Positions 29,212 to 41,022 are shown, counted from the first letter of the stretch. The stretch is DNA of 64,000 bases from Myxococcales bacterium (GCA_013297655.1 JAAFHV010000015.1:1-64000); one strand, 5' to 3'. Numbers and translations: made by a program. The notes: a model not told the origin generated them from the letters alone.

Positions 29212-29622
29212 CTACGCGCGGGCGTCGGGGCTTCCGAGGTCCGTGCTGGGATACGTGCTCGCGACGACGTGATTCACCATCGCGACGAGCGCCTCGAGGC
29301 CAGCCAGCTTCGAGACGAAGCCCGTCGCCAGAGAATCGGCGCAGCGACGCTCCAATTCTCCGTCCGGCAGACCGGAGACGAGCAAGATCGGCGCGGTGAC
29401 CGAGTGTGTGCGGCGCAACGTGGAGACCACGCTGTCGCCGTATGCCTCTGGCATTTGCACGTCGACGAGGAACACGTCGGGGACCGGTCGCACGCTGCGC
29501 AAGGACTCGAACTCCGCGAGGGTGAGCGCGGTGTCCACGTCGTAGCCCTCGTTCTCGAGTGCCTCTTTGGTGATCTCGAGCGTCGTGGCGTTGTCGTCGA
29601 GGACCAAAATTCGCGGAATCAT
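29212..29622 (-). CDS. Stand-alone response regulator
   Basis: 136 residues, receiver domain only: acidic pair in ILVLDDNAT, phospho-Asp in VFLVDVQMPEAYGD, conserved Lys in GFVSKLAG. It closely resembles the receiver at 38908-39279 (shared VDVQMPEA-(Y/F)-GD and GF-(V/I)-SK--GL), so the two are paralogues. No kinase is adjacent; the orphan PAS kinase or the phosphorelay further along could phosphorylate it. Start ATG at 29622, with a TTG three codons upstream as an alternative. Confidence 0.88.
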   Translation of the reverse strand: MIPRILVLDDNATTLEITKEALENEGYDVDTALTLAEFESLRSVRPVPDVFLVDVQMPEAYGDSVVSTLRRTHSVTAPILLVSGLPDGELERRCADSLATGFVSKLAGLEALVAMVNHVVASTYPSTDLGSPDARA

Positions 29623-29792: not shown

Positions 29793-30803
29793 TTACGCGG
29801 GCTTTCTCGCGAAGACCACCTCGAAGAGACCGCCGCGATGCTCGACGTCGACGAAGCCGACCCGCGTCAAGGCTTCCTCGTACCATGTACGCTCGCGCAG
29901 TCGACTGACGCAGCTATCGATGCCGACCAGGAAATACGTCCAAAAGAACTGCACCGCGAGCCGCTCGGACGTGCGGAACTCTTCACAAATGAACAGCGTG
30001 CCGCCGGGCGGGAGCGAACGAAACGCCTTCTCGATCAGCGTGCGCGCCACGTCGGCGGGCCAGTCGTGGAGCACACGCACGAAGGAAACCACGTCGTAGC
30101 CGCCGGGAAGCTCTTCCGCGAGAAAGTCGCCACCGACGAAGCCGAGGCGGTCTGGGCCGAGCCCGAGTCGCTCCGCGCGCGCGCGAACCAATGGCTCGAC
30201 GAGCGCTAGGTTGTATACGTCTGCCACGAGCGCCGGCCGCACGGCGAGGAGCGCCGCCGCCACCACCCCGTCGCCTCCGCCCACGTCGAGCCAGCGCGAA
30301 CGCGACGCACGGAACAGGGTGTCCCCCGCCGAGGTGAGCGCCTCCACGATGGGAGGCGTGCCCTGCGCCATGCTCTCCTCGAACGCCGCGACTTGCTCGG
30401 GGGTGGTCGGCGGCCACGAGAAGCCACCCGGATGGTGCTGACCGCGCACGATCTCGGGGAGCTTGCCGAACGTTTCCATATACGGATAGGCGTCGCGATT
30501 CTTCTCGATCGAGCTCGGTCCGAGCACCGCGTCTACCGCCGGGCCGAGGGGCTCGGAGGTCTCGTAGATCGCCGACGCGATCGCGTCTTCCGGCTGACGA
30601 CGCGCGACCAACCCGAGGCTCTCGAGGCCATCCATGAGCTTGAAGAGGCGCCCCGGCACGGCGCCCGTCAGCTCACAGAGCTCCCCGAGCGTGACCGGGC
30701 CGCGGTCGAGCCGCGCGACGATCCCGAGCCGGTTCGCGGCGTCGACGAGGTCGAGCGCTTTTTTTCCGTGAAAGAGCAAACTGAGCATTCCGCGCGCGTT
30801 CAC
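29793..30803 (-). CDS. SAM-dependent O-methyltransferase (family 2 type)
   Basis: 336 residues. An N-terminal winged-helix dimerisation domain (about 10-90, VDAANRLGIVARL) is followed by a Rossmann methyltransferase core with SAM motif WLDVGGGDGVVAAALL. The catalytic-His region is FVRVLHDWPADVA, typical of acetylserotonin/flavonoid-type O-methyltransferases. It would transfer a methyl group to a hydroxyl on a small aromatic substrate. Its ATG overlaps the stop of the kynureninase-like gene (ATGA), and a tryptophan-dioxygenase homologue comes first, so it probably methylates a product of those enzymes, for example a hydroxylated anthranilate, kynurenine or indole derivative. Confidence 0.9.
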   Translation of the reverse strand: MNARGMLSLLFHGKKALDLVDAANRLGIVARLDRGPVTLGELCELTGAVPGRLFKLMDGLESLGLVARRQPEDAIASAIYETSEPLGPAVDAVLGPSSIEKNRDAYPYMETFGKLPEIVRGQHHPGGFSWPPTTPEQVAAFEESMAQGTPPIVEALTSAGDTLFRASRSRWLDVGGGDGVVAAALLAVRPALVADVYNLALVEPLVRARAERLGLGPDRLGFVGGDFLAEELPGGYDVVSFVRVLHDWPADVARTLIEKAFRSLPPGGTLFICEEFRTSERLAVQFFWTYFLVGIDSCVSRLRERTWYEEALTRVGFVDVEHRGGLFEVVFARKPA

Positions 30804-31945
30804 TTGGACTCCTCGCGAGCGAAGGTGACGAGCGCGTCCATGAAGGCGTCTATCTCCTCGTCCGTCGAGTAGAAGTGGGGCGCGACGCGGAGGTAGCCGC
30901 GATAGCTGGAGACCATGTTCTGCGCGAGGAGGCGCTTGTGGACGTTCGCGTCCCCCGGAAACGAGAGGCTCGCGATAGCCCCTCGTCGCTCGGGCGACTC
31001 CGGGCTCGCGACGCCCAACTGGGCCTCTTTCGCGCGTGTGATGACGCGCTGAGTGAGGACCAGCGAGCGCTCTCGGATCGCCGCTATCCCGAGCCTCGTG
31101 ACCATCCTGAGCCCTGGCAAAGACACGAACGCGCCCATGACGTTCGGAGTCCCCGCCAAGAACCGACGCGTACCCGTTGCATGACGAAGCCCGTCACCGA
31201 ACGCGAGCGGATCTTCCGTTCCCATCCACCCCGTCGCCGCGGGCGAGAGGCTGGGGAGCAGAGCCGGTTTGACGTAGAGGAAAGCCGCTCCCATCCCACA
31301 GAGGAACTTGTGGGAGCCCCCGAGGAGGAAGTCGACGTCGAGCGCCGTCACGTCGATCGGCACCGCGCCGACCGTCGCGAAGGCATCGACCGCCACCAGC
31401 GCGCCGACCGAACGCGCGCGCGCGACGACCGCCGCGAGATCGACGAGCGCGCCCGTGCCCGGAGTTGCGTGTGGAATACACACGAGGCGCGTCCGCTCGT
31501 CGATCGCGGCGAGGAGCGCTTCGAGGTCGATCGTGACGCCGTCACGCGACGGCACGACCACCGCCTCGGCGCCGTAACGCGAGAATCCGCCGAACAAGAA
31601 CGGAGCGGTGGGAAAATCGAGCGTCGTCGTGACGAGGCGCGGTCGCTCCTCGAACGAAAAACAAGAGACGACGCGACTGAGCAGCGTCGCGACGTTCGCG
31701 TCGGTGACCACGGAGCCACGCGGACCGTTCACGAGCGCGGCGAGGGCATCGCCGTGCTCGGCCAACGCGGGAAAGAACCGCTCCTTCCATACCTCGTCCC
31801 TCCACGCCGCCCAGGTGCTCCCGAACGAATCGAGGCCTTCGCGCGCCGCGATCGGGAGCGCGCCGGTGGAGTTGGAGTTCAAATAAATGCCGGTCGCGAG
31901 CACGGGAAACTCGCGCCGCAGCGCGCGCATCTCTTCGACGCTCAT
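30800..31945 (-). CDS. Kynureninase-like PLP-dependent enzyme (aminotransferase class V fold)
   Basis: 381 residues. PLP-binding Lys213 is in GGSHKFLCGMG, cofactor-pairing Asp187 in VAVDAF, and LNSNSTGALP sits at the start. The segment LDFPTAPF recalls the FP(S/T) signature of kynureninases. Other class V enzymes such as isopenicillin-N-epimerase-like proteins are possible. It lies 4 bp after the dioxygenase homologue and overlaps the methyltransferase start. If a true kynureninase, it would cleave kynurenine to anthranilate and alanine; no kynurenine formamidase is encoded in the cassette. Confidence 0.85.
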   Translation of the reverse strand: MSVEEMRALRREFPVLATGIYLNSNSTGALPIAAREGLDSFGSTWAAWRDEVWKERFFPALAEHGDALAALVNGPRGSVVTDANVATLLSRVVSCFSFEERPRLVTTTLDFPTAPFLFGGFSRYGAEAVVVPSRDGVTIDLEALLAAIDERTRLVCIPHATPGTGALVDLAAVVARARSVGALVAVDAFATVGAVPIDVTALDVDFLLGGSHKFLCGMGAAFLYVKPALLPSLSPAATGWMGTEDPLAFGDGLRHATGTRRFLAGTPNVMGAFVSLPGLRMVTRLGIAAIRERSLVLTQRVITRAKEAQLGVASPESPERRGAIASLSFPGDANVHKRLLAQNMVSSYRGYLRVAPHFYSTDEEIDAFMDALVTFAREESK

Positions 31946-31949
31946 TCGG

Positions 31950-32885
31950 TCAACCTGCGCGACTCGACGACGGCCCCGGCATCCCCTCGGGTTCCGAGTC
32001 CTCGGCGACGGCGGGATGAGTGCCGCTCACCGATTGGGTCACGCCGACGCTCATCGTCCCCGACGCGTGTGTCGGCGGGCCGCCCGCGTTCGTCGTGCGC
32101 GCTTCCCCGGGCTGGAAACCGCCCGCTCGGTTCCACGTCTCCGTCATCTCGACTCGGATGTCCCACAGCTCCGGGAAGAGAGGCCGCGTCATGCGCGAGG
32201 CGAGCAGCACCGTCGGGAATCCGTCGAGCGCTTTGACCGACTTCGCGACCCCGATCGTTCGCCGCACCAGCATGTAGTGAGTGACCAGCCACGACTGGAC
32301 CGCCTCGTCGAGGTCGAGCAAGGCCTCCGCGAGACGGTGGCTCTCCGCGTGAGACTGCGGATCTTGATAGATATCGATCGGCCGAATGCCGAGACGCGCG
32401 CACCAACGCCCGAACGCAGCCCGGAGGCCCTCGCTCGCGACGTTGAAGCGGTTATAGCCAGGCGATTCGAGCCCGCTCCCGTTCCCGAGCTGGCGACGAA
32501 CCACCTGAAACACGTCCGGTGGCATCGTCTGCAAGATTCGGATTTGGTCGCCGAGCCCACGCGCGATGACGAGCATGCGATGCAACGTCGCGACGATCGC
32601 AGGAAACTTTGCGCCGTCCATCGCGCGAACGAGGTTCACCGCCTCGAACGTGAGCTGCTTCATCCAGAGCTCTTGCGTCTGGTGAACCACCTGAAACAAG
32701 AGCTCGTCGGGGGCGCTCAGCGCCGCGAACGGTGTCTGGAGCGCGAGCAGCTCGTTGGTATTTAGGTAAACTTCGTAGTCGAGAACACCTTCTCCTACGT
32801 TCTTACGCAACGTCGAGTTGAAGACGGTTCCTTCGATCGTTCGCTGGAGAGCGTCGGCCGACGTCCCCGAGTCTTTGGCAGTCAT
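31950..32885 (-). CDS. Divergent tryptophan 2,3-dioxygenase superfamily haem protein
   Basis: 311 residues. Typical TDO features are YLNTNELLALQ, the distal-site helix FQVVHQTQELWMKQ (His68) and the proximal haem helix VTHYMLVRRTIG (His203). Two canonical substrate-site motifs are missing. Where TDO has the carboxylate-binding Arg in FRLLENK, this protein reads SPGYNRFNVASEG. The GTGGSSGY loop after the proximal helix is replaced by GVAKSVKALDGF. A Pro/Ser-rich tail of about 50 residues follows the fold. It may accept a substrate other than free L-Trp, or insert oxygen differently, as known for TDO-superfamily enzymes of natural-product pathways. First gene of the three-gene cassette. Confidence 0.85.
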   Translation of the reverse strand: MTAKDSGTSADALQRTIEGTVFNSTLRKNVGEGVLDYEVYLNTNELLALQTPFAALSAPDELLFQVVHQTQELWMKQLTFEAVNLVRAMDGAKFPAIVATLHRMLVIARGLGDQIRILQTMPPDVFQVVRRQLGNGSGLESPGYNRFNVASEGLRAAFGRWCARLGIRPIDIYQDPQSHAESHRLAEALLDLDEAVQSWLVTHYMLVRRTIGVAKSVKALDGFPTVLLASRMTRPLFPELWDIRVEMTETWNRAGGFQPGEARTTNAGGPPTHASGTMSVGVTQSVSGTHPAVAEDSEPEGMPGPSSSRAG

Positions 32886-32945: not shown

Positions 32946-33335
32946 TCACGCGCCAGTGCTGGTGCGCTTCGCGGCGAGGTCGCGGAGCCTCGTGGCCATC
33001 TCCGGTACCGGCAAGCTCTTGGAGAGCCAGCCGTCCGTTTCACACTCGAGCGCCACCCTCCGCAGCTTTCCTTCGTCGGCCGCGGAGAGGAGCAAGACGA
33101 GCGTGCGCGGTGAGGCAAACGCTCGGACGATTTTCACGGAAGCACGAGGGTCCGCGCCGAGCACGCTCGCGTCGAGCAAGACGACGTCGTGCACGCCGTT
33201 CGCCAGCGCGCTCGCCACGGTCTCGAGCGACGGAATGCCATCGAGCTCCACTCCCTCGTACGTGAGCGCGCGCCCGAGCAGCTCTACCTGCATCGGATCG
33301 TCGTCCACGAGGAGGACACGAAGCGCGACGGTCAC
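32946..33335 (-). CDS. Stand-alone response regulator
   Basis: 129 residues from a GTG at 33335 that overlaps the stop of the hybrid kinase (GTGA). One receiver domain: acidic residues in VLLVDDDPMQ, phospho-Asp in VVLLDASVLGADP, Lys in WLSKSLPV. It has no output domain. As the last gene of the FIST-kinase-receiver operon it is the natural final acceptor of that phosphorelay, acting by protein interaction. Confidence 0.88.
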   Translation of the reverse strand: MTVALRVLLVDDDPMQVELLGRALTYEGVELDGIPSLETVASALANGVHDVVLLDASVLGADPRASVKIVRAFASPRTLVLLLSAADEGKLRRVALECETDGWLSKSLPVPEMATRLRDLAAKRTSTGA

Positions 33336-35425
33336 GATCTTCCCTGTGGAAGGAGGCGACGAATGACAGACATGAGGTGGTCTCGCTCGACGGGTTTCGT
33401 GACGTATTCCACGCAGCCTGCGTCGCGCGCTTTCTGCCGCTCTTCCTGGCCGGCATGCGCCGTCACGGCGACGATGGGGACGTGCGCGACCGAGGGGCTC
33501 GCCTTGATTCGTCGCGTCGCTTCCCACCCGTCGATCCTCGGCAGCGAGAGATCCATCAGGATGAGATCGGGGACTTCGCGCGTCGCGCGCTCGACTCCGG
33601 CCTCGCCGTCCTCCGCTTCCATCAGCTCGAAGTCGGCAGAGAGGTAGCGCCGCACGATGTCGCGGTTCTGCGGGTTGTCCTCGACGTAGAGAATGCGCGG
33701 GAGAAGCTTCTCGATCGAGCGCTTCGACGCGACGAGCTTGGTCGCTTGGCGCACGAGCTCGTCGAGCGCGACGCCACCCTTCGCGAGCACGTGCGAGACG
33801 CCGTCTTCGAGGGTGCGCTGCTCGTCACGCGACAGGCTCTTCCCCGTGAGCACGAGGATGGGGACGTCGTTGCCCTCTGCACGCAACGTTCGCAGCACTT
33901 CGAAGCCGTCGATGCCCGGCATCAAGAGGTCGAGGACGACCATCGCGGGAGAGACGACCCGCGCGCGAAGGAGCGCCTCTTCACCGTTCGCGGCTTCTAC
34001 AGTGGTGAAGCCTACTCGGCGCAAGCTGCGCGAGACCAGCTCGCGCATCGCAGGATCGTCGTCGACGACGAGCACGTCGCCCGCTTCGGGCCGAATCGAC
34101 TTTTTGACGACCGCGACGAGCATGTCGGGCTCGACCGGCTTGACGAGGTAGTCGCAAGCTCCGAACGAGAACCCGCGCGCGCGCTGCTCTTCGACCGAGA
34201 GGATGACGACGGGAATGTTGGCAGTCGCAGGATCGCCCTTGAGGCGCGCGAGCACCCCCCAGCCATCGAGCTTCGGCATGTGAAGATCGAGCAAGATCAT
34301 CGACGGACGGTGCTGCTTGGCGAGCGCGAGGCCCTCCATGCCGTCCGACGCCGAAATCACGTCGAACGAGCCGTCGAGGAGGTGACCACGAAGGAGCTGA
34401 TGCACCATCGGGTCGTCGTCGACGATGAGCACGGTGACGCCGCTCGCGGGCGGGGTCGAGTCCTCGCGCTGGACGACCAAGTGCTGGCGCTCCTGCGTGC
34501 CGTGCCCGAGGGCGTTCGGCAGCTTCACGAAGAACGTGGTGCCGCGGCCGAACGTGCTCGTCACGCTCACCACGCCGCCGAGCACCTGCGTGACCTCGCG
34601 GACGATCGCGAGCCCGAGGCCGGTCCCACCGACACGACGGCTCGGACTGCCGTCGACCTGGCGGAACTTGTCGAAGATATGGGGGAGTTGGTCGGCCGGA
34701 ATACCCGAGCCGGTGTCCTCGACCTTGATGAGCAATGTCTTCGCGTCGGCCGAAGCGGTCACGACGATCTCGCCCGAATCGGTGAACTTCGCGGCGTTGG
34801 AGCACAAGTTCAGCAAGACTTGCTTGAGCTTGAGGGAGTCGGTGAACGCAGAGCGGGCCTCTGCTTCGACCACGGTCTTGAGCTCGACGTCCTTGCCGCG
34901 GAGAAACTCGCGGACAGTGGCCGTGCACTCCGTGAGCATTTGCTCCACGTCGACCGTCTCGTGGACGATCTCGACGCGCCCGGCCTCGATCTTGGACAAA
35001 TCGAGGATGTCGTTGATGAGGGCGAGGAGCGTCTTCGCGTTCGCCTTGATGACGTTGAGGTCTCGCCGGCCGTGAGGCGTGAGGCGCTGCCCCTCCTCCC
35101 GCAGCACGAGGTCGCAGTAACCGAGGATGCCGTTGAGAGGAGTGCGGATCTCGTGCGAGAAGTTCGCGAGGAACTCGCTCTTCAACCGAGCCGACGCCTC
35201 CATCTCGTGGGCGCGTTGCTCTTCGACCTTACGCGAGCGCGCGAGCTCGATCGCGAGACGATCGAGGTCCTCGTTTTGTTGGCGCGTCACTTCCATGAGG
35301 AGCGCGCGCTGCTGGAACGTCGCGAGCGCACGGGCGGCGACGACGGCCCTCGCTTCGAGCTCTTTACGTAGCGCCGCGTTCTCGTCGCTGAGCCGCTTGA
35401 TCTCGGCCTGGAGAGTGTCGCTCAC
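33332..35425 (-). CDS. Hybrid histidine kinase with three receiver domains
   Basis: 697 residues from a GTG at 35425 overlapping the FIST gene stop (GTGA). The first 80 residues are a coiled coil with no membrane segment. HisKA has FLANFSHEIRTPLNGIL (His91); the ATPase domain has LCSNAAKFT, DTGSGIP and GGTGLGLAIV. Three receivers follow, with phospho-Asp in ILLDLHMPKLDG, VVLDLLMPGIDG and LILMDLSLPRIDG. The middle one ends in LAKGG instead of the usual KP. The kinase lacks its own sensor, so the FIST protein encoded just upstream is the likely input. Confidence 0.95.
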   Translation of the reverse strand: MSDTLQAEIKRLSDENAALRKELEARAVVAARALATFQQRALLMEVTRQQNEDLDRLAIELARSRKVEEQRAHEMEASARLKSEFLANFSHEIRTPLNGILGYCDLVLREEGQRLTPHGRRDLNVIKANAKTLLALINDILDLSKIEAGRVEIVHETVDVEQMLTECTATVREFLRGKDVELKTVVEAEARSAFTDSLKLKQVLLNLCSNAAKFTDSGEIVVTASADAKTLLIKVEDTGSGIPADQLPHIFDKFRQVDGSPSRRVGGTGLGLAIVREVTQVLGGVVSVTSTFGRGTTFFVKLPNALGHGTQERQHLVVQREDSTPPASGVTVLIVDDDPMVHQLLRGHLLDGSFDVISASDGMEGLALAKQHRPSMILLDLHMPKLDGWGVLARLKGDPATANIPVVILSVEEQRARGFSFGACDYLVKPVEPDMLVAVVKKSIRPEAGDVLVVDDDPAMRELVSRSLRRVGFTTVEAANGEEALLRARVVSPAMVVLDLLMPGIDGFEVLRTLRAEGNDVPILVLTGKSLSRDEQRTLEDGVSHVLAKGGVALDELVRQATKLVASKRSIEKLLPRILYVEDNPQNRDIVRRYLSADFELMEAEDGEAGVERATREVPDLILMDLSLPRIDGWEATRRIKASPSVAHVPIVAVTAHAGQEERQKARDAGCVEYVTKPVERDHLMSVIRRLLPQGRS

Positions 35426-36582
35426 GAGGAGGCCCCGAATACGAGCGAGGTGAGCGTGGTGTTGATGTGGAACCCGCAGTACGTCTCGAAATAGACATTG
35501 AAGCCCACGCACTCCGGCGCGCTGCCGAACGCCTTGGAGAGGTTCTCTGCTTCGCCCATCGCGGTGGCCTGCCACATGCGACCGGAGCAATGAAAGAGGA
35601 AGGCAGCTGTGGGCGACTGCACGCGCGCCGGAATGTCGACGTCGAAGAACTTCCGAGTATCGCCGACCGGATCCCCGATGCGCACGAGCTCGAGCTCTAC
35701 GCCCTCTTCGAGCATGTTGGCGAAGAGGATCGAGCCGTCGGGGAGCGGCTTCCACGGTGCACGAATGAAGTACTCGCGCCCAACCTTGAGCGCGGTCGGC
35801 ATGATCCCGAAGCCCTTCGGCTTCCCGAACTCGAGGTCGTCGATGGTCACCCCGAGCAGCTCGGCATAGCGTTGCGCCGCGGGTTTGCCGTCGATCTCGA
35901 TCGCGCGGTTCGTCGTTACGTCCACCTTGGTGAGGCGCAAAATTCGGCCCGTCGGGTGATACCAGTGATTGCGCATCGCCGCCCAGGGAGCGTCGGTTTT
36001 GAAGAGCACGGTCGCCACGGAATCGGTCGTCACTTCGTCGTCGACGTGGATCACCGAAGACTGCTTCGCGGGATCGGACTCGGAGTCTGCCGCCCCACCA
36101 CCGACCGCCACGAGGGCCTGGTTGCGGGACATGATGCCCATCAGAAACTCTTCTTTTTTGTAGCGAAACCCGTCATCGATCACGAGCGCGACGTAGCGCT
36201 TGGTGCCGAGCGCGTCGTCGCGCACGTCGAGCTGGCGCGCAGCGTCGCCGATCGCGCTGTCGCCCGCCGCCACCGCAGCCGTCGTCAAGTTGCGACCGAG
36301 GCCAATGCCCACCTCGAAGTCACCGCTCACGGCCCCGAGCAGCACCGAGTTCTGGTGGATTCCGTCACGATCGATCTCGCCAGCGGAGCTCGCACCGATG
36401 AGGCGCGCTTTCGGAAACCGGGAGCGCACGGCCTTGTTGAGGGCGACGTGGTCGAAGGACCGCGGGGCGTACACGGTCACGAGCTTGGGCTCGGCGCCTT
36501 CGAGCTTCGACACGAGCTTGTCAATCGCGCGAACCGGATCCTGCTCGTCGGTCCTCGCCGACTTGAGAGTCACGCTGGGCAT
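35422..36582 (-). CDS. FIST-domain sensory protein
   Basis: 386 residues covering FIST N (about 20-220; LIGASSAGEI and VGGGAADS motifs) and FIST C (about 225-370; GVELELVRIGDP, AFLFHCSGR and VYFETYCGFHINTTL). FIST proteins are cytoplasmic sensors of small molecules, possibly amino acids, usually encoded beside or fused to kinases and c-di-GMP enzymes. Here the stop overlaps the hybrid kinase start, so it should control that kinase directly. There is no signal peptide or membrane segment. Confidence 0.93.
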   Translation of the reverse strand: MPSVTLKSARTDEQDPVRAIDKLVSKLEGAEPKLVTVYAPRSFDHVALNKAVRSRFPKARLIGASSAGEIDRDGIHQNSVLLGAVSGDFEVGIGLGRNLTTAAVAAGDSAIGDAARQLDVRDDALGTKRYVALVIDDGFRYKKEEFLMGIMSRNQALVAVGGGAADSESDPAKQSSVIHVDDEVTTDSVATVLFKTDAPWAAMRNHWYHPTGRILRLTKVDVTTNRAIEIDGKPAAQRYAELLGVTIDDLEFGKPKGFGIMPTALKVGREYFIRAPWKPLPDGSILFANMLEEGVELELVRIGDPVGDTRKFFDVDIPARVQSPTAAFLFHCSGRMWQATAMGEAENLSKAFGSAPECVGFNVYFETYCGFHINTTLTSLVFGASS

Positions 36583-36726: not shown

Positions 36727-38508
36727 CTAGTTGAGTCCACTCTTCGGGTGGGTCGTGTGACACGCAGAAGTGCATTGGTCGAACGACTCGCGACCGCCGC
36801 CGACGTACATGCTCTCGATCGGACCGAATTGAGCAACGTGGGATTGCGGATAGCTCTTGTGGCAGGAGAGGCAGGCGGCTTTGCTGGTCCGCTGGATTCC
36901 CGCTTGGTCGAGGTGGCAGGCGCTGCACTTGTCCAGACGCTCGTCGAAGCGGTTCGAGCGCGAGTGGATGAAGTGGGTACGGACGGCGATCGGGCCCTCG
37001 AGCTCGAAGCCGAGCGGGACGTGGCACGATGCGCAGGCCGCGCGGTTGTCGTTTCCGTGAAGCACCTTCGAGAGCTCGCCGCCGCCGGAGTGGCAGCTCG
37101 TGCAGGGGCCCGTGTTGAGCTTCGCGACGGTCTTCGTGGTGGTGCCGACCTGGATTTGCACGGTTCGGCTAAACGGAACATCTTCACCGAGATAGGTACG
37201 GCGACCCTTCACGGTCACGAGGTACGTGCCGGGGCGCGCGTCCGCGGGGAGGCTGTAGACCCAGTTGTCCGGCGGCGTGCGGGCCCAACCGGCGCGGAGA
37301 GGATCGAACGCACCGCCGAAGAGGTCGCTCGAAGTAGGGAAGAGGCGGAACTGCGCGAACACGTTGTCACGTGCGAAGGTGCCCACGGTCTGGACGTCCT
37401 CCGGTCCGAGGAATTGAGAGAGCTCCGCGATCGAGCGGATCGGCTTTACGTCCTGCGCCGGTCCGATGATTTGGCTCATCAGCATGCGCTCGCGGTGCTT
37501 ACGACGGTAGTACGTGGTCGTCGGGTCGAAGAACGCGCGGTAATACTGGATTCCAGGCTCGTTCGCGCCGAATACGACCTCGTTGTACGTAGGCAAGCTC
37601 CCCTCCGGGTGGAGCCGAGCTCCCTGGCCGTCGCGGAGGGTGATGCGATATCGGATGTCGGTGCCCGGAGCATACGTGCCGTCCGCCCGAGGGGGAGTCA
37701 GCGCGTCGAGGTCGATCGAGAAACCGTACGCGTAGGTCGGGTTCTGAATCTGAGTGACCGGGATGGTGTAGGAGGCGTTGCTCTTTTGCGACCAGGTCAC
37801 GCGGAGGCGCGTGGTGTTGGGGTGGATGGTGAAGGTCTTCTCGGGGCTCCGCGTGTAGCGAAGCTCGACGAGAGCCTCTTCTTGGAACTTGGTGGCGCCG
37901 ACGCAGTTCGTCGCGGACACGCAGTCGTTCGTCCACTGGATGGCGCGGTAACGACGCGCGAAGAAGTCGTCCGACTCGCGGCGCTTGTCGTCGCTTCCGG
38001 CGTTCAGGACGATCGGCGAGCCCAAGGTCGCTCCCGCGGCGTTCTCCTGTCGCACTACGAACGAGTTCGACTGGTTCATCCACTTCGCGTTGCGGAAAAA
38101 GCGGCGTCGCGTGAAGGTACCGTCTGCGTTCGAGAGGAGTACGAACTCTTGGTCTGCGAGGCTGACCCCGCGCCAGTCGAGGGTGCTGAAATCGCCCGTG
38201 TGATCGAGCGCTGCGACCCCTTCGTCGACCGCGGCGTCGACGACGGCGCGCAGGTCGATCTGGTTGATGTGGAACTTCTGCCCTTTCTTGACCTTCAGTG
38301 GGGCGCCGACTCCATTTTCGATCTCTAGCGCGAGCCCCACGCTCGCCTGGTGATCATCATCGTCGCAGCGCGTTGCCTGAGAGACTTCTCCCAGACTCGC
38401 CAAATCTGCACCATCGTCGCTGGCACAACCCGCGAACGAGACCAAAAGGGCTGCCCCAATGGCCATGAAAATCGGCTTGCGGATACTCGAAGGTCTTGGG
38501 TCTTCCAT
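36727..38508 (-). CDS. Five-haem outer-surface cytochrome c lipoprotein
   Basis: 593 residues with a strong AGGAGG Shine-Dalgarno. The signal peptide ends with lipobox VSFAGC. About 430 residues of beta-rich sequence precede the haem region. There CTSCH, CASCH, CSACH and CLSCH give four ordinary sites, and a fifth, CTSACH near the C-terminus, has three residues between the cysteines. The layout resembles OmcA/MtrC-type surface cytochromes but with fewer haems, so extracellular electron transfer is plausible but not shown. It lies between two signalling operons on the same strand, each separated from it by a gap. Confidence 0.85.
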   Translation of the reverse strand: MEDPRPSSIRKPIFMAIGAALLVSFAGCASDDGADLASLGEVSQATRCDDDDHQASVGLALEIENGVGAPLKVKKGQKFHINQIDLRAVVDAAVDEGVAALDHTGDFSTLDWRGVSLADQEFVLLSNADGTFTRRRFFRNAKWMNQSNSFVVRQENAAGATLGSPIVLNAGSDDKRRESDDFFARRYRAIQWTNDCVSATNCVGATKFQEEALVELRYTRSPEKTFTIHPNTTRLRVTWSQKSNASYTIPVTQIQNPTYAYGFSIDLDALTPPRADGTYAPGTDIRYRITLRDGQGARLHPEGSLPTYNEVVFGANEPGIQYYRAFFDPTTTYYRRKHRERMLMSQIIGPAQDVKPIRSIAELSQFLGPEDVQTVGTFARDNVFAQFRLFPTSSDLFGGAFDPLRAGWARTPPDNWVYSLPADARPGTYLVTVKGRRTYLGEDVPFSRTVQIQVGTTTKTVAKLNTGPCTSCHSGGGELSKVLHGNDNRAACASCHVPLGFELEGPIAVRTHFIHSRSNRFDERLDKCSACHLDQAGIQRTSKAACLSCHKSYPQSHVAQFGPIESMYVGGGRESFDQCTSACHTTHPKSGLN

Positions 38509-38596: not shown

Positions 38597-38908
38597 TTAC
38601 TGGAACGAGCTCTCGAAGCGCCCCAGCGCCATCTCGAGCTCGGACAAGGCTGCGACGAGGCCGTCGCGGCGGGCAGCGCTCACGTCGGCGTGAAGTTGCG
38701 TCGCCGCCTCTTCCGCTGCTCGCGCGATCACGACGAGGTCGCCGAGGCCGAGGAGCCCCGCTTCACCGGCCAACGAATGCATGTGCCGTGCGAGGTGGAG
38801 GGCGCCGTCGCCCTCGACGTTCTTGGCGGTGCGAAAGCCCTCCGCGATGCGTTCTTTGGCCGACTTCGCGAACCTCGGAAAAAACTTTCGTTGCAGATCG
38901 GCGAGCAC
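38597..38908 (-). CDS. Histidine phosphotransfer (Hpt) protein
   Basis: 103 residues from a GTG at 38908 that overlaps the upstream receiver stop (GTAG). The four-helix Hpt signature is RHMHSLAGEAGLLGLGDL; His44 is the likely phosphoacceptor. A stand-alone Hpt passes phosphoryl groups between receivers, and three receivers are encoded immediately upstream while a hybrid kinase with three receivers lies 3 kb away. It is probably the shuttle of this signalling block. Confidence 0.85.
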   Translation of the reverse strand: MLADLQRKFFPRFAKSAKERIAEGFRTAKNVEGDGALHLARHMHSLAGEAGLLGLGDLVVIARAAEEAATQLHADVSAARRDGLVAALSELEMALGRFESSFQ

Positions 38909-39279
38909 TACTTGGGTCCTCCGACCGCTTCGTGGACGCGGGCGACGAGCTTGTCGAGGCCAGCGCGTTTCGAGATGAACCCCGTCGCTTCGGCGGCGGC
39001 AGCGCGCATCGCGAGCTCCTCCTCGCCGAGGCTGGAGAGAAGGAAGATGGGCACTCGCACCGAGTACGCACCGCGCAGGAGCGCCGTCAGGTCGTCGCCG
39101 AAGGCTTCGGGCATCTGGACGTCGACGAGGATGAGGTCGGGCGGTGCAGACCTGCGGAGCGCCTCGAACTCGTCGAGGGTCGTCGCGACGGAGACGTCGT
39201 ACCCCTCGTCCACGAGGGCGTAGCGCGCCAGCTCGAGCACGAGCGGACTGTCGTCGATGATGAGGATCTTACGCGACAC
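38908..39279 (-). CDS. Stand-alone response regulator
   Basis: 123 residues, receiver only: ILIIDDSPL, phospho-Asp in LILVDVQMPEAFGDD, Lys in GFISKRAG. It is a paralogue of the receiver at 29212-29622. Its start lies 11 nt inside the end of the PilZ-like/receiver gene and its stop overlaps the Hpt gene, so it belongs to a four-gene operon (40006-38597 on the minus strand) of receivers plus Hpt. Confidence 0.9.
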   Translation of the reverse strand: MSRKILIIDDSPLVLELARYALVDEGYDVSVATTLDEFEALRRSAPPDLILVDVQMPEAFGDDLTALLRGAYSVRVPIFLLSSLGEEELAMRAAAAEATGFISKRAGLDKLVARVHEAVGGPK

Positions 39280-40009
39280 CGACGTCCTCCCTTGCCATGA
39301 GAAACTCGAGGGTCTGGAAGAGGTCGCGCAGCACGAGGGGCTTCGCGAGGAAGATGTCCGCGCCGGCCGCGAGGGTGGCCTCTCGGACGTCGCTCCCGCC
39401 CACGCTGATCGCGACGACCGAGGCCTCCGCGTGGCGAGGGTCCTTCCGCAGCTTCGCGATGAACGTCGCGCCGTCTTGCATCGGCAGGTAGTAGTCGACG
39501 ATCACGAGGTCGTAGCGGCGCTCGGCGAGCTTCTCCATCGCCGCCACGCCGTCGTCCGCTTGATCGAGATGGAGCACACCGCTCCGCTCTCGGAAATATT
39601 TGTAAACTGCATACGAGAACATGTCGCGGATGAGGCGATTGTCCTCGACGAGGAGGACGGAGAGCTCGGCGCACTCGGCGAACGAGCGTGGCCCGGTGAG
39701 GCGCTTCACGAAGCGGCGCACGTCGACCCGCCCCGCTTCGTCGGCGTCGAATCGCACGCAGAACCCCGAGGGGGCCCCCGGGCCGCTCGAGAGGCGCACC
39801 TCGGAGACGACCCCCCGAACCCGGATCGGATCGACCGCCCGCGAGAGCGAGAGGCGAAGCGCGACCTCGGAGCCGACCGGAGGCAGCACGTCGGTCACCA
39901 AGAACACGGAGGACTCGCCGAGCTCGGTCGCGTACGACGTCACGATCCGGTCCGAGAGCTCGGCCTCCGCGCGGAGGAGCGGGCTCGGCTTTTTCGAGAT
40001 GGCGGTCAT
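39269..40009 (-). CDS. PilZ-like plus receiver protein
   Basis: 246 residues from ATG 40009, overlapping the upstream stop (ATGA). Residues about 10-110 look like a PilZ domain (GESSVFLVTDVLPPVGSEV, RVRGVVSEVR, GFCVRFD), although the RxxxR c-di-GMP motif is not clear. Residues about 117-245 form a receiver with VLLVEDNRLI, phospho-Asp in LVIVDYYLPMQDG and Lys in FLAKPL. It may join c-di-GMP status to the phosphorelay; if the Arg motif is truly absent it may not bind the nucleotide. Confidence 0.8.
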   Translation of the reverse strand: MTAISKKPSPLLRAEAELSDRIVTSYATELGESSVFLVTDVLPPVGSEVALRLSLSRAVDPIRVRGVVSEVRLSSGPGAPSGFCVRFDADEAGRVDVRRFVKRLTGPRSFAECAELSVLLVEDNRLIRDMFSYAVYKYFRERSGVLHLDQADDGVAAMEKLAERRYDLVIVDYYLPMQDGATFIAKLRKDPRHAEASVVAISVGGSDVREATLAAGADIFLAKPLVLRDLFQTLEFLMAREDVGVA

Positions 40010-41022
40010 GCGTGGCGCGCCCTTCCAATCGCCATGTTCGGGGGCGACAACTTCATCGTCATTTCCACGACCTCCCGCACGAAGCTGTCGAGGCCTCGGC
40101 TCTTCGAGACGAACCCGTCTGCCCCTGCCGCCATCGCGAGCAAGCGGAGCTCGGCATCGGGCAAGGTGGAGCAAAGAAGAATACGGAGCTCTTGCGAGCC
40201 GACCGCGTGCTTGAGGCGTGCGCAGAGCGCGTCCCCCGCGAGATCGGCGCGCCTCACGTTCGCGACGACCATGTTGGGGCACCAGTTGGCGACGATCGAG
40301 TCGACCTCGCCGAGGGCGACCGCGATGCGCACGTCGGCGCCCTCTGCGACGAGGCGCTCCTGCATGAGCTCGAGGGTCATCTCGCTCTCATCGATGAGGA
40401 GGAGACGAACGCGCTCCCACTCGCCCTGACGCGAGCCCACGCCCGCCTTCGGGGACGCACCACTCTCCGGACCGGCGAACGACGGTTGCTCGCGATCGGA
40501 GCGCGGCAAGCCGACATCGGCTGGGCGCGGAGAGCTGCCGATGGTGAACGGGTTCGTGGGCCGCTCCGACTCTTCCCCTCCGCTGGAGCGAGGATCGGGG
40601 AGGAGGCCCGCGAGCAAGTCGAGCAGACCGTCGCGCATCGGCGAGCGGCGCGCGGAAGACGAAGCGGGCGACGAGAGCGGGCCCATCGGTGGCTCCGTCC
40701 GCGGGGTCTCGGTGCGATCGCCGTAGAGGACGATCGGGCATCGGTCGGCGACCGCGTCGGCCACCATGGCGTGGCGTTCGCTCATTTGGCGAGCAGCGCC
40801 CGGCGCGGAGATGTCGAAGAGCACGACGGTAGGCGCCGGGTCGTCGAGGAGCCGGGCGATCCTCGCGACGTCACGCTCGAGCACGACGTCGTAGCCCGCG
40901 CCGAGCAGGACCGCGCCGGTCTTTGCGGCTCGTGAAGGATCGTCGTCGATCAGGACGATGCGGCTGCCACCCGAAGACTCACCCACGTTCCCCTCGATTC
41001 TCGATGATTCGCCTATCCCCAT
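40006..41022 (-). CDS. Double-receiver protein, second receiver lacks the phospho-Asp
   Basis: 338 residues. The first receiver (about 20-110) has IVLIDDDPS and a candidate phospho-Asp in VVLFDISAPGA. A Ser/Pro-rich linker of about 90 residues follows. The second receiver (about 205-325) begins LLLIDESEM but reads MVVANVRRADLAG where the phospho-Asp is expected, with Asn in its place; Lys is kept in GFVSKSRG. The second domain is therefore probably a pseudo-receiver used for protein contacts. First gene of the receiver/Hpt operon, coupled by an ATGA overlap. Confidence 0.85.
   Translation of the reverse strand: MGIGESSRIEGNVGESSGGSRIVLIDDDPSRAAKTGAVLLGAGYDVVLERDVARIARLLDDPAPTVVLFDISAPGAARQMSERHAMVADAVADRCPIVLYGDRTETPRTEPPMGPLSSPASSSARRSPMRDGLLDLLAGLLPDPRSSGGEESERPTNPFTIGSSPRPADVGLPRSDREQPSFAGPESGASPKAGVGSRQGEWERVRLLLIDESEMTLELMQERLVAEGADVRIAVALGEVDSIVANWCPNMVVANVRRADLAGDALCARLKHAVGSQELRILLCSTLPDAELRLLAMAAGADGFVSKSRGLDSFVREVVEMTMKLSPPNMAIGRARHA

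Follow-up and report, generated by a model that had tools for sequence, protein, structure and literature searches.

A putatively tryptophan-modifying gene trio as the probable enzymatic arm of a conserved myxobacterial locus with a predicted FIST-type sensor phosphorelay and a pentaheme cytochrome

A 64,000-nucleotide stretch of DNA from a Myxococcales bacterium (GCA_013297655.1, JAAFHV010000015.1:1-64000; hereafter the window) carries three adjacent genes for a tryptophan dioxygenase-like protein (TDO), a kynureninase-like protein (KYN), and an O-methyltransferase (OMT). The trio is the tail, or biosynthetic arm, of a longer conserved block that also encodes a predicted sensor phosphorelay of the nitric oxide (NO)/heme type and a five-heme cytochrome. 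The order of the genes on the minus strand of the window is REC3, Hpt, pentaheme cytochrome, FIST, hybrid kinase, REC1, TDO, KYN, and OMT, where the REC genes encode stand-alone receivers and Hpt a phosphotransfer protein. It is highly probable that these genes form one unit. The gene content suggests that the locus makes a regulated redox or signal molecule and is not dedicated to simple tryptophan breakdown; the complete reading, in which a regulated locus makes a tryptophan-derived product with a redox or signal role, has in our estimate an even chance of being correct.

Linkage of the enzyme trio to the control block

The three open reading frames occupy positions 29793-32885 of the minus strand, where an earlier note on this DNA, made from the sequence alone, had placed them, and each matches the family named there. 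The TDO-like gene (31950-32885) encodes a protein of 311 amino acids that matches the PF03301 profile, the KYN gene (30800-31945) has Aminotran_5 and KYNU_C matches, and the OMT gene (29793-30803) matches Methyltransf_2. The 4-bp gap between the TDO and KYN genes is as previously described. The KYN and OMT genes overlap by 4 bp, as had been reported; the sequence of the overlap is GTGA instead of ATGA, and the start codon of OMT is GTG. The reported absence of kynurenine formamidase agrees with our finding of none near the trio and no PF04199 member in the genome, other formamidase families being untested. The trio is thus a real feature, but its earlier description was incomplete, since it omitted the six co-directional genes located upstream.

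The trio was compared with a set of 318 genomes, all from one class and many of them fragmented. The identical gene order is present in 14 of them, which belong to three families and comprise the window genome (G000) and 13 others, including G040, the locus of which runs off the end of a contig. The proteins of the window are 42-59% identical to those of the loci from G064, G101, G081, G082, G083, G213, G218, and G258, and 33-49% identical to those from G263, G264, G288, and G289 (tblastn against the fetched loci), which gives a per-gene range of 33-59%. With this order shared by 14 genomes, the arrangement is not due to chance. The earlier note had named a lack of conservation elsewhere as a point against its reading, and the trio is in fact conserved. 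The TDO proteins of the trio form one clade (100/100), as do the KYN proteins (99/100). The window genome encodes one further TDO, which has a normal GTGGS-type loop, and a profile search of the genome identified no kynureninase above the curated cut-off. In G101, the trio is immediately preceded, in the same orientation, by a gene for a protein of the TENA/THI-4/PQQC family (L037 8289-9002).

The FIST, kinase, and REC genes adjoin the trio in the window and in G064, G081, G082, G083, G263, G288, and G289. The same linkage in G264 spans a contig break, and the contig ends inside the TDO gene. The trio and the control block thus occur together in nine genomes from two families, in several orientations. 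The segment cytochrome-FIST-kinase-REC1-TDO-KYN-OMT is arranged identically on one strand in the window, which belongs to family f1, and in G263 from family f4. Among the trio genomes, 13 of 14 have the FIST gene, compared with 30 of all 318 genomes (hypergeometric probability 4e-14, not corrected for kinship).

Predicted sensor, phosphorelay, and pentaheme cytochrome

The FIST protein (35422-36582, minus strand, as are all the following genes) contains FIST_N and FIST_C domains over its full length, and its match to the NosP family NF041558 is also full-length, with a score of 168.6 bits. We found no credible sequence match to it in the PDB, and a model predicted without an alignment had a mean pLDDT (predicted local distance difference test) of 35.5 and was not used. 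The adjacent gene (33332-35425) encodes a soluble hybrid histidine kinase with HisKA, HATPase_c, and three REC domains, in which no sensor domain was detected using Pfam. It is followed by the stand-alone receiver REC1 (32946-33335), identified by a Pfam match. Both genes start with GTG: the start of the kinase at 35425 overlaps the FIST stop codon, and that of REC1 at 33335 overlaps the kinase stop codon, each within the sequence GTGA, so that together with the KYN/OMT junction the locus contains three GTGA overlaps.

The receiver REC3 (38908-39279) matches Pfam Response_reg, tested on positions 38911-39279, and overlaps by 1 bp with the Hpt gene (38597-38908), the product of which scores 25.7 bits against a cut-off of 24.6 for Pfam Hpt. 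The Hpt protein has orthologues in G064 (59% identity) and G149 (45%), and that of REC3 in G064 is at the matching position and is 59% identical (tblastn), so that an Hpt gene and an additional REC gene are located upstream in G064 as well. A further stand-alone receiver, REC2 (29212-29622, Pfam match), lies after OMT; it is 53% identical to REC3 and likely belongs to the unit. A gene at positions 40006-41022, also on the minus strand and farther upstream than REC3 and Hpt, encodes a protein with a C-terminal REC domain that may belong to the relay.

The closest known system is NosP with NahK or NosK from Pseudomonas, Burkholderia, and Legionella, with which the window shares the full-length FIST_N/FIST_C protein, the adjacent sensorless kinase, and the relay of Hpt and REC proteins. 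A published kinase partner of NosP likewise lacks any recognised sensor domain (PMC12570481), and NahK of P. aeruginosa affects the redox-active metabolite pyocyanin (PMC12570481, PMC11784011, PMC12997753). In contrast to these systems, the FIST gene of the window is joined to genes for putative tryptophan-modifying enzymes and a pentaheme cytochrome.

The c-type cytochrome (36727-38508) contains four CxxCH motifs and one CxxxCH motif at its C-terminus, and its FAGC lipobox indicates that it is probably a lipoprotein. The N-terminal segment of about 430 residues belongs to no known family. The cytochrome weakly resembles NrfH and Ext-type cytochromes, and no credible relative was found in the PDB by sequence. 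Among 21 homologues that were checked, 19 retain the complete set of heme motifs, and the two most divergent have fewer.

Exchange of the enzyme cassette

In G029, G030, G105, G106, G148, G149, G312, G313, and G314, the FIST family is accompanied not by the trio but by a fusion of about 600 residues that combines Trp_DMAT and Haem_oxygenas_2 domains. The fusion gene occupies the slot of the TDO gene. Its neighbours are a KYN-like gene and, at several of the loci, also a methyltransferase gene. Some of these loci are fragmented: that of G030 is on two contigs, the contig of G313 ends inside the fusion gene, and that of G148 ends at FIST, and therefore the kinase was not seen. The KYN proteins of the prenyltransferase-type loci form a clade of their own, each KYN type being monophyletic, whereas TDO-type and prenyltransferase-type loci are interleaved in the FIST tree. 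This combination is what would be expected if cassettes had been exchanged repeatedly under a single control block, and the enzyme set is exchangeable.

Cytochrome homologues adjoin both types of loci alike, with identities of 47-65%. A homologue at least 46% identical is present in 24 of the 318 genomes; one or the other pathway is found in 21 of these 24, and FIST in 23. More distant homologues (28-39%) are located beside three prenyltransferase-type loci without the FIST family of the window, one of them in G224.

The N-terminal half of the fusion matches bacterial tryptophan prenyltransferases of the dimethylallyltryptophan synthase type, such as 6-dimethylallyltryptophan synthase (best PDB match 6zry, 1.2e-39). 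The fusion differs from them in the additional PF14518 domain with a heme-oxygenase fold and in the kynureninase-like gene that follows. The replacement of the TDO-like enzyme by a tryptophan prenyltransferase fusion strengthens the inference that the KYN-like enzyme handles a tryptophan-derived amino acid. Fusions of PF11991 and PF14518 are encoded at L124 6748-8577, L125 6459-8228, L127 3823-5664, L129 5349-7223, and L130 3924-5951, and we found no published description of a protein that joins a tryptophan dimethylallyltransferase to an iron enzyme with the heme-oxygenase fold. G224 carries a second, divergent FIST gene (L163 11589-12839) beside its fusion/KYN pair, which is an independent case of FIST association.

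The TDO-like enzyme

The TDO-like protein belongs to PF03301, with 96.7 bits against a cut-off of 34.9. It scores 117 bits against the 390.7 required by the TIGR03036 equivalog, and the KYN-like protein scores 81.9 bits against 246.4 for TIGR01814. Because these scores are far below the curated equivalog cut-offs, both enzymes are divergent. Residues His68 and His203, which the earlier note correctly listed as retained, align with the distal His55 and axial His240 of TDO from Xanthomonas campestris (xcTDO), with which the window protein shares its fold, and Arg130 aligns with the carboxylate-binding Arg117. All three residues are invariant in the clade of trio TDOs. According to the alignment, the trio TDOs also retain the equivalents of Tyr24, Tyr27, Phe51, Ser124, and Gly125, and xcTDO position 113, a tyrosine, is a phenylalanine or tyrosine in the trio TDOs and a phenylalanine in the window protein.

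Two substrate-binding motifs had been described as lost, which is accurate for one of them. The GTGGS loop, which includes Thr254 for the substrate amino group, is absent from 13 of 13 trio TDOs. In place of the FKRGTGGSSGV segment of xcTDO, they have a sequence built around an invariant ALDG.PT core, and the window protein has KSVKALDGFPT in place of GTGGSSG (codons at about 32211-32243). The SSGFQS stretch of the active site, in contrast, is GSGLES in the window protein, with the serine and glycine retained. The window protein is also about 48 residues shorter between xcTDO positions 132 and 202: a segment of 22 residues (145-167) corresponds to about 70 residues in xcTDO, and the model has a single long helix (142-165) in this region.

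This shortening matches the loss of helices aF and aG in MarE, a heme-dependent aromatic oxygenase (HDAO) that forms 2-oxindole, contains SLGGR instead of GTGGS, and retains His55 and Arg118 (PMC11904535). The window protein shares with MarE the loss of both elements and the retained distal histidine and arginine. However, its loops are ALDG (ALDG.PT) and NGSG instead of SLGGR and DATG, which departs from the HDAO pattern, its sequence matches canonical TDO (73 bits) better than MarE (38 bits), and its partner enzymes differ from those of MarE. The predicted structure, built from an alignment of 10 rows with a mean pLDDT of 67 and with values below 50 for the N-terminal active-site stretch (19-50) and the replaced loop (214-223), is most similar to MarE (Z 20.7), closely followed by xcTDO (Z 19.3), so that the structural comparison proposed by the earlier note results in close to a tie. 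The last 50 or so residues are disordered in the model. No pocket geometry was taken from it, and the residue assignments are based on sequence alignment.

The earlier note had proposed that a conserved carboxylate-binding arginine would speak against a specialised function. Arg130 is present in 13 of 13 trio TDOs, but because MarE carries Arg118 as well, the arginine does not separate TDO from MarE. Nor need the loss of the loop imply the loss of a tryptophan-type substrate, because MarE also lacks GTGGS, and loop swaps shift the balance between mono- and dioxygenation in the TDO superfamily (PMC12312684).

Short TDOs with a (T/A)(P/K)SLKG loop, without GTGGS, and paired with a KYN-like gene are encoded at L148, L149, L150, L151, L153, and L081 from several families. 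Outside the class, Endozoicomonas (L025, L028) has a pair of short TDO and KYN-like genes, with no OMT detected.

The kynureninase-like enzyme and the O-methyltransferase

The KYN-like protein is a fold-type-I pyridoxal phosphate enzyme that retains the cofactor lysine, K213. In comparison with the kynureninase KynU (PDB: 1QZ9), D187, F111, and W240 are the equivalents of Asp201, Phe129, and Trp256, and the C-terminal arginine R353 is present. The two proteins differ in that Tyr226 is replaced by His212 and Asp132 by alanine. KYN-like genes of another clade in family f29 (L076, L079) adjoin gcvT- and gcvH-like genes of the glycine cleavage system; these seemed relevant and were set aside, as no TDO or OMT is encoded there.

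The OMT protein belongs to the S-adenosylmethionine (SAM)-dependent Methyltransf_2 family (58.6 bits, cut-off 22.3). The SAM motif GGG(D/N)G and an LHDW motif are conserved in the trio; the histidine is present in 13 of 13 proteins, 12 of which have LHDW and one LHDV. A C-methylating pathway of the pyrrolobenzodiazepine or actinomycin type was ruled out, since the locus has no kynurenine monooxygenase and the methyltransferase has the O-type histidine.

Discussion

The TDO-like heme enzyme may open or oxygenate the indole ring of L-tryptophan. With no formamidase involved, the KYN-like enzyme would then cleave the side chain of the amino acid to yield an anthranilate-type or (formyl)amino-aromatic compound, in which OMT would methylate an oxygen. 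The NosP-like FIST protein would sense heme, NO, or a related ligand and tune the sensorless kinase, and the signal could pass through the REC domains of the kinase, Hpt, and the stand-alone receivers. The resulting O-methylated, tryptophan-derived aromatic compound may be a redox mediator for the cytochrome or a signal itself, so that the locus would place a redox-active or signalling metabolite under heme, NO, or redox control, working with a surface cytochrome. In Pseudomonas, the electron shuttle pyocyanin rises upon the loss of NahK (PMC11784011). In C. elegans, a precursor from the kynurenine pathway feeds an electron carrier, rhodoquinone, which is an analogy only, from another organism with other enzymes and prenylation (PMC6656428). 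These precedents make the redox reading plausible, not proven.

Several observations weigh against a redox or signal locus under FIST control. The FIST gene is on another contig or far away in the trio genomes G040, G213, G218, and G258, and G101 has neither FIST nor the cytochrome. Conversely, eight genomes with FIST have neither pathway, and prenyltransferase-KYN pairs occur without the FIST family of the window in G081-G083, G087, G088, and G224. The co-occurrence probabilities ignore kinship, the 168.6 bits of the FIST protein are below the 450-bit cut-off of the NosP equivalog (NF041558), and the redox role of the product is deduced only from the adjoining cytochrome.

The alternative that survives best, although we regard it as unlikely, is an autoinducer system in which the product of the trio is itself the ligand of FIST and switches the kinase, following the logic of CqsA-CqsS or PhcB/PhcS-PhcR. 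The synthase and sensor genes are adjacent in one apparent operon. The literature describes the PhcB-PhcS-PhcR system, in which PhcB is a methyltransferase signal synthase, as well as cell-density signalling by anthranilic acid (PMC7608240). However, the FIST/kinase family (44-66% identity) accompanies two enzyme sets of different chemistry and is not sorted by set, an unusual pattern for a receptor that recognises a single product. The known ligands of FIST proteins are heme and NO (PMC12570481, PMC8846402), and the cytochrome is left unexplained.

The earlier note regarded the trio as a possible small natural-product locus, which would make it a free-standing tryptophan cassette with signalling neighbours that merely regulate it or are there by accident. 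A specialised, conserved pathway to a tryptophan derivative, as opposed to plain catabolism, is supported, because the trio clades are monophyletic, a separate TDO with a normal loop is present, and no kynureninase is above the cut-off. A free-standing locus is not, because the trio is the enzyme arm of the cytochrome/FIST/hybrid-kinase/REC locus with exchangeable enzymes. The trio does lack an adjoining control block in G101, G213, and G218, but the linkage in nine genomes from two families and several orientations, and the near confinement of the cytochrome to genomes that carry either pathway, make independence improbable.

Ordinary catabolism of tryptophan to anthranilate by a divergent TDO appears slightly more improbable again. 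The nearest TDO relatives are of the short type, frequently accompanied by a KYN-like gene, and Arg130 and both histidines are retained. At L148, such a pair is followed by genes for an enoyl-coenzyme A (CoA) hydratase and an acyl-CoA dehydrogenase, a gene with a weak 2Fe-2S match, and one for an oxidoreductase of the old yellow enzyme type; this catabolic-looking cluster is probably an operon for aerobic tryptophan/anthranilate-CoA breakdown with an uncharacterised short TDO. The trio TDOs, however, form their own clade with their own loop, the trio includes OMT and is set in an apparent signalling operon without CoA-type catabolic genes, and a TDO with a normal loop is encoded elsewhere in the genome. 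A shared chromosomal context with no common function is very hard to credit: all genomes are from one class and kinship inflates co-occurrence, but the linkage persists despite rearrangements of order and strand between lineages (L036, L119, L120, L121, L041), the enzyme set is swapped at one address, and the trio occurs in three families of the class.

A locus making a regulated tryptophan-derived product thus remains the preferred interpretation. More tentatively, these loci may represent a hitherto undescribed class of heme-centred control loci in myxobacteria, in which a NosP-like FIST/hybrid-kinase phosphorelay and a pentaheme surface cytochrome operate with interchangeable tryptophan-diversifying cassettes, each composed of a heme oxygenase or the prenyltransferase/heme-oxygenase-fold fusion, then a kynureninase-like enzyme, and then a methyltransferase, which would make redox-active signals or electron shuttles. 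We found no description of the combination of trio, cytochrome, FIST, and kinase in the open-access literature, which is weak evidence of its absence. If the interpretation is correct, NosP-type FIST sensors would gain a dedicated metabolic output encoded in one operon, and the locus would provide a genetic test bed for FIST-domain sensing. It would also define a family of tryptophan-derived metabolites with a predicted partner, the pentaheme cytochrome. The clade-specific ALDG loop also provides a naturally occurring variant with which to examine the published proposal that the GTGGS or SLGGR loop contributes to the choice between mono- and dioxygenation in the TDO superfamily.

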